DNA of 64,000 nt, from NCBI RefSeq assembly GCF_017515565.1, contig NZ_JAFWFN010000084.1:32668-96667 (forward strand), written 5' to 3'. Each line of letters begins with the position of its first letter. Within the stretch, counting starts at the first letter, position 1. Source of the stretch: Halomonas sp. (GTDB lineage: Bacteria > Pseudomonadota > Gammaproteobacteria > Pseudomonadales > Halomonadaceae). The position numbers and the translations under genes were made by a program. A model generated the notes under the pieces. The model did not search any database, was not told the origin of the DNA, and worked only from the letters and a program-made list of their open reading frames with translations. This document shows positions 60,428 to 63,670 of this stretch, piece by piece.

Positions 60428-60676
60428 CTCAATCCCTTAATGGTCGAGTTAGCAGGCTAATCGGATTTTCAACAATTGGCTAGCGGCAACAGGATATGAA
60501 ACCCGAAGTTCTCGTAACGCGTGGTAACGAGCGAAGCGAAGCACTCGCGGGAGCAATGCCAAGCCAATGCAACCAAGCCTGGTAATGATGTGGGAGGGCG
60601 CTTCAGCGCGCGAAGATTAAGCCGCTAATGTTGGCGGTGTTGCTGAAATGTAAGAAGGCAACGTAGTAGCGCGTAT
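60428..60676. repeat. Repeat-bearing intergenic segment left of the IS
   Basis: No gene is visible. Two features stand out. CGCGTGGTAACGAGC at 60519-60532 resembles the IS target and repeat junctions on the other side of the IS. GTGGGAGGGCGCTTCAGCGC at 60590 onward (to 60615) is a REP-like palindrome of the GTGGGAG...CGAAG type known from pseudomonads. GTAGCGCGTA at 60666-60675 is the left flank of the inserted IS. Confidence 0.6.
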
Positions 60677-60690
60677 ATGGACTCCTCCTC

Positions 60691-60947
60691 GCTTGCAAGC
60701 ACAAAAGGTCATAGCGGCAATGTCGACTGCTAGCGTATATTCGGTCTCGTCAAGGATGCCTAACGTGTGGGCATCGGACCTTAATGGGCTATTCGCACGC
60801 CGGGTACCCGCAGGGTAAACGAGCTCTAAGGCTCTACGCGCTACACGGTATGGCCCGGCGTCGGTTCGACCTGTTCGCCATCTCTCTTGTGGTGTTGCAA
60901 TCGGGGTGGTGGGTACACTGGTTAAAGGTTTCTGGTCACGTCGCCGC
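60691..60947 (-). ncRNA. Putative bridge RNA (seekRNA) region of the IS
   Basis: Non-coding end of the element, between the transposase stop and the inverted repeat, the place where IS1111-type elements encode their guide RNA. Read on the transposase strand it has several small hairpins, such as TACCC-TGC-GGGTA near 60804-60816 and GATGCC/GGCATC at 60755-60775. Between 60844 and 60813 it contains GTAGCGCGTA, identical to the left flank of the insertion, then nine bases, then AGCTCGTT, complementary to the right flank. This fits a target-binding loop with two guides. The RNA ends are not defined. Confidence 0.65.
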
Positions 60948-61982
60948 TTACGCAGCAGCGGCCAACTCAGGGTTATACGGCACCTCATAACGCGTAACGG
61001 CCCACGCCATGCGCGCTGTCTTATTGGCTAGCGCCACGATCGCCACGTTACGATGTTTGCGCACGGCAAGGTGCTTGATCCACTGACTAAGCCCGTCTTC
61101 TTGCCTGACTGCAAAACGCAGCACCGCTCGTGCGCCATGAACCAGCAGCTTTCGCAAGTAACTATTGCCACGTTTACTGATGCCCAACAGCCGCTCTCGT
61201 CCACCCGTGCTATGTTGTCGCGGGGTCAGTCCTAACGAGGCGGCAAAGTCGCGTCCACGCTTATAGATAGCGCCATCACCTAGCACGCCAGATAACGCAC
61301 TGGCGGTAATGGGGCCAATGCCGCGCAGGGTCATTAAGCGCTTGGCGACCGGGTCGGTGTTGGCATGCGTTTCAATGGCGGACGTTAACTGCTCAACGCG
61401 CTCATCTAAATAGCGTAGGTCATCTGCTAAATCGGCCAACAAGCGGCGAAAGCGGTCACTGAGTCCGTTGGTGGCATCCTCCAGCCAAAGAGGCAGCGCC
61501 CGCCGTAACTGCTGGATACCCGCGGGGGTAATAAAACCATACTCACCAACGAGGCCACGGATTTGATTGGCCTTCGCTGTGCGCTGGCTAATCAGCTCTT
61601 CGCGTATCCGGTGAGTGGCTTGGCAGTCCTGTTGATCAACGGTTTTTACGGCCACGAAGCGCATCGTGGGACGGCCTAATGCTTCACAAATCGCTTCAGC
61701 ATCTGCCCGATCATTTTTATTCGTTTTAACGTAAGGCTTCACGAATTGGGCGGCGATCAGCTTTACCTGGTAACCCCGTGCTTGAAGTTCCCGTGCCCAA
61801 TAATGAGCCGAGGCACACGCTTCCATGCCAATAAGGGCACCTTGAGGAACACGGCGACAGATTGCATCCAGCCACTTGTTACGGGCATATTTACCCCGCC
61901 ATTGAGGCTTCTCATGCCGATCAACGCCATGAACGTGAAAGACAGACTTTGCGATATCCACACCAACTCGGCTAATGTTCAT
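60948..61982 (-). CDS. IS110-family (IS1111-type) transposase
   Basis: DEDD/serine recombinase-type transposase of 344 residues. The N-terminal RuvC-like domain has Asp9 (VGVDIAKS), Glu54 (IGMEACASAHYW), Asp91 and Asp94 (NKNDRADAEAI). A coiled linker follows, then the Transposase_20 domain (LMTLRGIGPITASALSG, FAASLGLTPRQHSTGG, ISKRGNSYLRKLLVHGA), where the catalytic serine lies, most likely in HSTGG. No frameshift or stop interrupts it. In this family the enzyme works with an RNA that pairs with donor and target DNA. Confidence 0.95.
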   Translation of the reverse strand: MNISRVGVDIAKSVFHVHGVDRHEKPQWRGKYARNKWLDAICRRVPQGALIGMEACASAHYWARELQARGYQVKLIAAQFVKPYVKTNKNDRADAEAICEALGRPTMRFVAVKTVDQQDCQATHRIREELISQRTAKANQIRGLVGEYGFITPAGIQQLRRALPLWLEDATNGLSDRFRRLLADLADDLRYLDERVEQLTSAIETHANTDPVAKRLMTLRGIGPITASALSGVLGDGAIYKRGRDFAASLGLTPRQHSTGGRERLLGISKRGNSYLRKLLVHGARAVLRFAVRQEDGLSQWIKHLAVRKHRNVAIVALANKTARMAWAVTRYEVPYNPELAAAA

Positions 61983-62081
61983 ATGGGCTTCTCCTGACTC
62001 TCAAGCTGATAGTTTTCCAACCACCTACCAGTATGGCGCACTGACGCCGGAGTAGGGTGAGGAGGAGTCCATCCCATTGGG

Positions 62082-62460
62082 TAACGAGCTTGTGAGGAAC
62101 GAGCAACGAGGCACCCGCGAAGCACCGCACAGCGGTGCCAAGATACTTAAACGCCCACCAGCGATAGGAAGGAGTGCCTTAACTCGTGACGATAACGCCG
62201 CCTAAACGGAACACATCATTAAAACGGCTATACGCACATGTAGCGCGTGATAATGAGCTTGTGAAGAACGAGCAACGAGGCACCCGCGAAAGCACCGCAC
62301 AGCGGTGCCAAGATACTTAAACGCCCACCAGCGATAGGAAAGGACGCCTTAACCCGTGACGATAACGCCCCTAAACGGAGCTCATCATGAAAATGGCTAT
62401 ACGCACATGTAGCGCGTAGTAACGTTTTTGCGAGGTGCAAGCAAATAAGGCACCCGCGAA
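62082..62460 (+). repeat. 169-bp direct repeats, two full copies and a partial third
   Basis: Copies at 62082-62250, 62251-62419 and 62420 to about 62460 are spaced exactly 169 bp apart. The first two are about 90 percent alike by eye; the third matches only at its start and at GGCACCCGCGAA. Each begins TAACGAGC or a variant and the first two end in GTAGCGCGT plus two purines. Each full copy has a perfect hairpin GCACCGC-ACA-GCGGTGC. No coding capacity is credible and no integron attC core sites are present. The junctions equal the target of the neighbouring IS. Confidence 0.9.
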
Positions 62461-62707: not shown

Positions 62708-63670
62708 TCACGTTATCGCATCCAGAGGGCTTGTTAAGCCAGCAAAATGTTGGCCGAGCACATAGGTATAAATTTGCGTAGTAGATACATCAGAATGCCC
62801 AAGTAGCTCTTGGACGGTTCGAATATCCCTTCCATTTCTCAGCAGTTCGGTCGCAAAGCTGTGACGAAATGTATGGCAAGAGACCCTTTTATTAGTCAGC
62901 TTTGCAGCAACTACGGCTTTCTTTAACGCTTTTCTGGGCACAGAATCATGCAAGTGGTGGCGACATAGCACGCCAGTAACGGGGTGGCGAGAAATGCTGC
63001 TAGACGGAAATAAATACATCCACGCAGGCTGCCGATAGGCAGAAGGATATTTTTTTGCCAAAACACCTGGTACAGAAGGGCCAACGCTTTCCTGGTTATC
63101 TCGTTCTTGTAGTGCTAGCGCAGTGCTGATTATGTCTCTCGTACTTTCATAAAGCGAGGGGCTAAAGATGGTCACTCTATCTTTTGACCCTTTACCGTCT
63201 CTCACTGTTATCGATCCTCGGGAGAAATCGATGTCTTTCACTCTTAAGCGCAGGCACTCAGTAATTCGTAATCCAGAACCGTAAAGAAGAGAAAAAATCA
63301 GTTTATCCCTACCGGTCATCTCCTTGAGGATGCTCGCGACTTCAGCTGCCATAAGTACTTCAGGCAACCGCTGTGGCTTAGAAGCATAATTGAATTCAAG
63401 ATCACCCAATGGCTGTTTCAGAAATTGGTTATACAAATACGCTAGCGCGTTCAACGCTATACGTTGGGTATTGACTGCCACATTGCGTTCGGTGGCTAGG
63501 TAGCCCAAAAAACCTACTACTTCAGTTGCTCCCATGTCACTGGGGTGGCGACAATTGTTGAACCGGATGAAACAACGTATCTAGTAAATGTATGTTTTCT
63601 CGGTTCGCATGCTCATCCCACGCACGCGGATGGACGTGCGAACCTCATTCAGGAAAGGGCTGCTGGCCAT
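62708..63670 (-). pseudogene. intI: Integron integrase interrupted by one amber codon
   Basis: Tyrosine recombinase of the IntI group, 320 codons from the ATG at 63670. N-terminal part: MASSPFLNEVRTSIRVRGMS and RTEKTYIY; then an in-frame TAG at 63581-63583 where IntI proteins have Trp (YxYWI); then IRCFIRFNN and the rest in the same frame. The catalytic set is present: Arg in YGSGLRITECLRL, HTFRHSFATELL, GHSDVSTTQIYTY. The IntI-specific insertion is visible (KKYPSAYRQPAWMYLFPSS, then VLCRHHLHDS). Apart from the nonsense codon no decay is seen, so the mutation is recent, suppressed, or a sequence error. Cassettes, if any, lie to the right. Confidence 0.9.

Follow-up and report, generated by a model that had tools for sequence, protein, structure and literature searches.

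The stretch of Halomonas DNA analysed here (the window, 64,000 nucleotides) contains an insertion sequence whose non-coding end resembles, in short segments, the flanks of its own insertion site. This raises the question of whether the element carries an RNA that specifies its target and whether that target can be read from the sequence. We conclude that it is very probably an RNA-guided element of the IS1111 group with target-loop and donor guides, which would be directed into a repeat of Halomonas and Vreelandella genomes with the loss of a central base. The sequence evidence for this consists of the anatomy of the element, the order of its two target guides (T, then B), the tracking of flanks and element ends by the target and donor guides, the consensus fold of the target loop, and an extra base in the empty sites. 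The mechanism was already published in 2024 (seekRNAs, bridge RNAs), and the window element is a further member.

Anatomy and Boundaries of the Element

The element was delimited by comparison with its copies in other genomes. Its parts are as follows.

60674..62079, minus strand: IS1111-group insertion sequence, 1406 bp (comparison of copies)
60948..61982, minus strand: transposase gene, 344 aa, with DEDD_Tnp_IS110 and Transposase_20 domains (NCBIfam: IS110 family RNA-guided transposase)
60677..60690, no strand: subterminal inverted repeat (sTIR), right end, 14 bp (sequence)
62059..62072, no strand: subterminal inverted repeat, left end, 14 bp (sequence)
60674..60676, minus strand: 3-bp right terminal extension, ATA in the IS orientation (copies aligned)
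62073..62079, minus strand: 7-bp left terminal extension, CAATGGG in the IS orientation (copies aligned)

The two 14-bp sTIRs are perfect repeats, and the CAATGGG and ATA outside them are identical in 8/8 copies of more than 92% identity, the window copy included. Since these extensions flank the sTIRs in the close copies, the element was taken to span 60674–62079 (1406 bp), which replaces the 60677–62091 of the original prediction. A 7/3 extension rule is given for IS1111 elements in PMC11187229.

In a profile search, the transposase matched PF01548 and PF02371 above the cut-off, and it scored 330.6 bits against NF033542 (cut-off 140). Its 344 residues, with a DEDD (RuvC-like) and a C-terminal Transposase_20 domain, fit the 330–350 aa of IS1111 transposases, and the C-terminal motif GL-P----S(t)G, listed for the group in PMC11187229, is present in this protein (P0001) as GLTPRQHSTG. 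As in other IS1111 elements, a non-coding region lies downstream of the transposase gene, with 257 bp between the gene and the right sTIR (60691–60947). Placement among IS110 (IS621-like) elements found no support, as the RNA region is downstream of the transposase, not upstream, and the 14-bp sTIRs are present. A target-site duplication is absent: no base was gained relative to 5/5 empty sites, which were picked among the matches listed.

A single copy was found in the 86 contigs that make up the assembly of the element's own genome. DNA matches to it, many of them short or partial, were found in 25/82 genomes of the genus (own genome included), and protein matches at E up to 1e-60 in 50/275 genomes of the family. 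The scan of named genomes used the best 80 of 402 relatives, and several of these loci coincide with ones already found in the other searches; the nearest among these 80 belong to Vreelandella neptunia and Halomonas sp.

Target Guides in the 3' Non-Coding Region

Of the 181 matches of a tblastn search, the comparison retained the 169 that spanned 150 residues or more. They yielded 119 distinct copies with recognisable ends; those dropped were partial, duplicate or lacked a recognised end, some of them at 72–78% identity. The copies were oriented, their ends were located, and each 3' non-coding region was compared with its own flanks.

The alignment of 32 copies of more than 70% identity, chosen by identity and by the finding of both ends and not by the GCTCG motif, showed an invariant GAGC...GCTCG hairpin bordered on each side by a short variable segment. 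The segment that precedes it (T guide) is complementary to the right flank's top strand, and the segment that follows it (B guide) is identical to the final bases of the left flank. The T guide thus lies 5' of the B guide, which is the order of IS1111 seekRNAs, where the top-strand guide precedes the bottom-strand guide (PMC11187229). The features of the region are listed below.

60734..60871, minus strand: predicted seekRNA/bridge RNA core (aligned and folded with relatives; predicted ends)
60837..60844, minus strand: T guide GUAGCGCG, with the right half-site 60666–60673 (top strand in the IS orientation) as predicted partner (8/8)
60821..60834, minus strand: scaffold hairpin GAGC...GCUC separating both guides (alignment, consensus fold)
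60814..60819, minus strand: B guide UUUACC, with the left half-site 62080–62085 (bottom strand) as predicted partner (5/6)
60666..60673, plus strand: half-site read by the T guide (flank comparison)
62080..62085, plus strand: half-site read by the B guide (flank comparison)

The last five bases of the B guide all match (TTACC). The segments that the original prediction had singled out are indeed located where it put them: GTAGCGCGTA at 60844–60835 (minus) equals 60666–60675, AGCTCGTT at 60825–60818 is the complement of 62083–62090, CCCATT stands at 60788–60783 (minus) and again on the plus strand at 62073–62078, and GTCC stands at 60779–60776 (minus). Their reading had to be revised in part. 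Eight bases of the ten-base match lie in the target, while the last two (TA) are inside the element, as it starts at 60674. The proposal of two guides, one per target strand, holds for the internal loop of the consensus fold with the top-strand guide first; the second guide was misplaced. Instead of AGCTCGTT, the real one is TTTACC (60819–60814), matching TTACC, which also explains the one extra base needed to extend the match. AGCTCGTT consists of scaffold and the first two bases of the B guide, and AGCTCG occurs within 14 bp of the left junction in 1/37 copies, namely the window copy. AGCUCGUU was rejected as second guide, its GCUCG being scaffold that is present in the non-coding region of 32/32 copies of more than 70% identity.

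For the statistical comparison of guides with flanks, 37 copies with 21 distinct guide pairs were chosen by the hairpin motif, the constancy of which in this set is by construction. The T guide matched its own flank with a mean of 5.62 of 8 bases against 3.27 (sd 0.29) for permuted flanks, and the B guide with a mean of 4.57 of 5 against 1.92 (sd 0.27), with 0/20,000 permutations as good in either case. The alignment of copies that had been proposed as a check thus shows both guides following their own flanks over the 21 distinct pairs. The own flank was strictly the best in just 12/21 pairs, partly because several elements share a target. An unanchored joint score over 93 distinct non-coding regions gave 11.68 for own flanks versus 9.77 for those of other elements (0/20,000); here the own flank beat 95% of unrelated flanks in 45/93 only. 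Part of this modest ranking may be due to targets used by several elements and to the shortness of the guides. In one copy (L064), the B guide UUUACG has a one-base misfit to its own flank TTACC.

In the ten copies with the flanks of the window target, the guides are identical or almost so, and among the copies compared none was seen with the guides of the window element in an unrelated target, the counter-example that the original prediction had named. Its broader claim that the target is readable from the RNA guides is therefore supported by the guide–flank comparison. The claim that one locus suffices for a confident reading did not stand up. When the 257-nt non-coding region was subjected to 5000 dinucleotide shuffles, 2.7% of them gave a T match of at least 8, 73% a B match of at least 5, and 1.8% both together. 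As 1.8% of shuffles do as well, the window locus by itself is weak evidence, and the claim is carried by the comparison with relatives.

Predicted Fold of the RNA

The RNAalifold consensus of 21 sequences left both target guides unpaired in an internal loop around the hairpin. The closing stems of this loop show compensatory changes, and the outer helix is formed by two arms.

60855..60861, minus strand: closing stem of the target loop, 5' arm, pairing with 60797–60803 (helix 1: two-sided changes in 6/7 pairs)
60797..60803, minus strand: closing stem of the target loop, 3' arm (consensus fold)

In the named structure, 97.2% of cells pair, with two-sided changes in 34 cells versus 9.0 in shuffles, and sliding the structure by 1–3 columns lowered the pairing to 28–38%. 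The hairpin between the guides gives no covariation because it never varies. A position of the guides in a stem had been named as evidence against their role: single-sequence minimum-energy folds do pair part of the T guide, at stabilities that are not unusual (z −1.32 and −1.06), whereas the 21-sequence consensus leaves both guides free. The Rfam search (E up to 1) returned no relevant family and one irrelevant weak match.

Donor Guides

Two further segments of the same region correspond to the ends of the element itself.

60783..60788, minus strand: donor guide 1 CCCAUU, which complements the left terminal extension (donor comparison)
60735..60740, minus strand: donor guide 2 AUAUAC, equal to the right end ATATA followed by the base that opens the left end (donor comparison)

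It is the core CCCAU of guide 1 that complements the left extension. A donor region does follow the target loop, as had been predicted, but GTCC is not a donor guide: it overlaps the conserved stem GGTC/GACC in the counted structure, and the donor guides are CCCAU and AUAUAC. The RNAalifold consensus instead pairs the GTCC letters with donor guide 1. As two bases of that guide pair with the neighbouring GG in the consensus, any fold given for the donor region is tentative.

Among relatives with variant ends, the donor guides change with them. Guide 2 is AUAUA where the right end is ATA, and AUACA, AUGUA, AUCUA and AUGCA where it is ACA, GTA, CTA and GCA, respectively; two copies of another group with the end CTATA have CUAUA. 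Guide 1 is UCCAU with the left end TAATGGA (15/17), CUCAU with CAATGAG (3/3) and UUCAU with CAATGAA (2/2). The match was exact in 78/95 regions for guide 1 and in 92/95 for guide 2, of which the sixth base equals the first (left-end) base of the element in 95/95; 3/98 regions had no anchor for donor scoring. These raw counts overstate the case because each guide was in part already set by the pattern used to find it, namely CAT for guide 1 and TA or CA for guide 2. Under the same constraint, 177/190 matches over 19 end/guide classes were obtained versus 149.9 (sd 3.9) after permutation (0/20,000). Of the 17 misses of guide 1, 14 would be U-G wobbles. Potential donor-binding nucleotides in the IS1111 multiloop were already described by Durrant et al. 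2024 (PMC11208160). In 88/95 scored regions, the right flank and the left extension begin with the same base, which resembles a shared core of one base.

Flanks Predicted behind Group II Introns

L170 and L164, two copies whose right ends look odd, were kept as misses in the test of 21 guide pairs. They failed the match because their right flanks began with the same odd sequence, which proved to be the start of a group II intron in the right end of the element (Rfam RF02005 in both; RF00029, the 3' domain of the intron, in one). The T guide of L164 predicts CGACCTAC past the intron, and in the sequence fetched there, TA-CGACCTAC follows immediately on the RF00029 match (8/8). Behind the intron of L170, the predicted flank was not found in the fetched sequence, so one of two predictions came true. 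L170 carries the same intron start as L164, and the similarity of the two introns stops after about 836 bp; this copy may therefore be truncated or rearranged.

In two different IS1111 relatives, L226 (G117) and L225 (G158), group II introns identified with Rfam start after CCATA, within the right extension of 3 bp, and the intron may recognise the end of the element. The predicted far flank of L225 was not found behind its intron.

The Target Repeat

The target is a repeat of the form 5'-TTACS-N-CGCGCTAC-3', seen in both orientations. Its 14-base pattern is present in 56/82 genomes of the genus, with up to 60 occurrences in one, and the repeat is widespread in Halomonas and Vreelandella genomes. 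Members of the family adjoin the insertion.

62082..62424, plus strand: tandem units of 169 bp that belong to the target repeat family, next to the insertion (sequence)

In several Halomonas and Vreelandella genomes, the repeat forms tandem and inverted arrays with a spacing of roughly 160–300 bp. An integron integrase gene (62711–63535, minus strand; TIGR02249, 331 bits) adjoins the repeat cluster; read from its first ATG, it lacks the first 40 model positions. With an integrase next door, the repeat was considered as an integron attC site. This was rejected, as 11 sites lie outside long ORFs in two 19-kb stretches of one other genome. Judged by eye, the genes around these sites are presumably housekeeping genes.

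Two further observations concern insertion sites. In G059, two adjoining copies with intact ends (L142) occupy the target of the window element, and their transposase matches contain several stop codons. In G034, a distant IS1111 relative (L155–L160) is found at GTGGG/AGCG..., a REP-like repeat, and sequence similar to this repeat occurs in the window near 60590–60612.

A Central Base Apparently Lost on Insertion

The same locus without the element was fetched from five relatives, picked among the matches listed, and in 5/5 it reads ...CGCG-T-GGTAACGA, which is one base longer than the joined flanks. At another copy (L141), a nearby repeat unit of the same genome is identical to the occupied site over 60 + 60 bp and has an extra A. 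Relatives in other subgroups do have empty sites equal to the joined flanks: they were contiguous in 87/87 cases in three genomes with related elements, counted with a pattern from the G186/G112 copies from which the own site of the G182 copy differs by one base, and in 6/6 cases in a fourth genome with a more distant element. Since the empty sites of these subgroups are contiguous, the subgroup of the window element differs from them. Insertion thus apparently removes one extra central base pair of the empty site.

The copy L063 bears on how this may come about. It is inserted at a TTACG site, and 28/28 TTACG repeats in the four genomes searched carry C at the central position; its right end nevertheless reads ATA. 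The ninth base of the T guide is U in the other seven close copies and G in L063, so that U faces A and, in L063, G faces C. We give about an even chance to the reading that the guides fix the two cuts independently and that this IS1111 element uses half-sites one base pair apart and deletes the pair between them, the ninth T-guide base tracking the lost base. Among the papers listed in the literature searches, no report of a one-base loss by IS1111 insertion was found.

The right extension of the subgroup might instead be of 2 bp (AT), with the A derived from the target, so that insertion is fully conservative and no base is lost. The central base is indeed A (IS orientation) in 5/5 empty orthologous sites, picked among the matches listed, and in the best-scoring repeat counterpart of 10/10 same-target copies, several of which counterparts score low; moreover, a conservative exchange requires no loss. 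We nevertheless consider this unlikely. Donor guide 2, AUAUAC, fits the 10-bp junction ATA + CAATGGG, relatives with the same ATA end have contiguous empty sites (the 87/87 and, for the distant element, 6/6 given above), and base loss is favoured over a target-derived A mainly because L063, at its C-carrying site, still reads ATA. The two readings predict different circle junctions: ATACAATGGG, with 10 bp between the sTIRs and loss of the central base, for a 3-bp extension, and ATCAATGGG for a 2-bp extension.

Insertions could also pick rare repeat variants without the central base, in which case nothing would be lost. Such variants exist, as three GTAGCGCGGGTAACG sites in two genomes were among the matches listed and one TTACCCGCGCTAC site was found in G059, and both match the two guides without a gap. 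They make up 1/39 matching sites in G059, where every matching site was counted, and 1/68 distinct sites in the collected loci, yet 10/10 same-target copies are without the base. Given also that the base is present in 5/5 relatives at the window locus (picked among the matches listed) and in the repeat unit otherwise identical to the site of L141, we regard this selection of variants as improbable. Finally, that the matches are due to chance or to repeats shared by element and host, with no guide RNA, is very improbable, for although the joint match at the window locus alone is at a chance level of 1.8% and AGCTCG did prove coincidental, guides and flanks co-vary across relatives, the fold that contains the guides shows covariation, and of two flanks predicted ahead of look-up one was found.

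Proposed Mechanism and Relation to Known Systems

From these comparisons, we infer transcription of the non-coding region, RNA binding, strand exchange and the loss of the base by insertion itself. The 3' non-coding region would give rise to a seekRNA (bridge RNA) that the transposase binds. In the target loop of this RNA, 5'-GUAGCGCG-3' would pair with one half-site on its top strand and UUUACC with the other on its bottom strand, the GAGC/GCUC hairpin lying between the two guides, and CCCAU and AUAUAC, further on, would recognise the left and right ends of the element. The element would thereby be directed into the 5'-TTACS-N-CGCGCTAC-3' repeat in one orientation. As each guide appears to set its own cut, the single base N between the half-sites would be lost on insertion.

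In Siddiquee et al. 2024 (PMC11187229), the seekRNA elements ISEc11, ISPa11 and ISKpn4 likewise have a DEDD transposase of 330–350 aa, sTIRs, 7/3 extensions, a 3' non-coding region with the top-strand guide 5', and an own target for each element group. ISPa11 also targets a chromosomal repeat (REP), from which the target repeat of the window element differs. ISEc11 is described there as inserting with no additional bases, whereas the empty site of the window element is one central base pair longer than the joined flanks. The guide RNA of the window element is predicted from its sequence. Durrant et al. 2024 (PMC11208160) likewise have a target loop and donor guides in the IS621 bridge RNA and in predicted IS1111 bridge RNAs; compared with it, donor tracking was here counted, by sequence, over 95 non-coding regions. 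IS110-type elements differ from the window element in having the RNA at the other end and the guide order reversed (PMC11187229). The target repeat of the window element is not named in the examined text of either paper.

Taken on its own, one locus makes the guide legible weakly; natural relatives make it legible firmly, and the guide can be separated from the scaffold. This natural family, with its many targets and variant ends, is a data set for the target and donor rules of IS1111 elements. If the loss of the central base is real, it would constrain the position at which the recombinase cuts each strand, and it would bear on the gap tolerance of programmable insertion tools.
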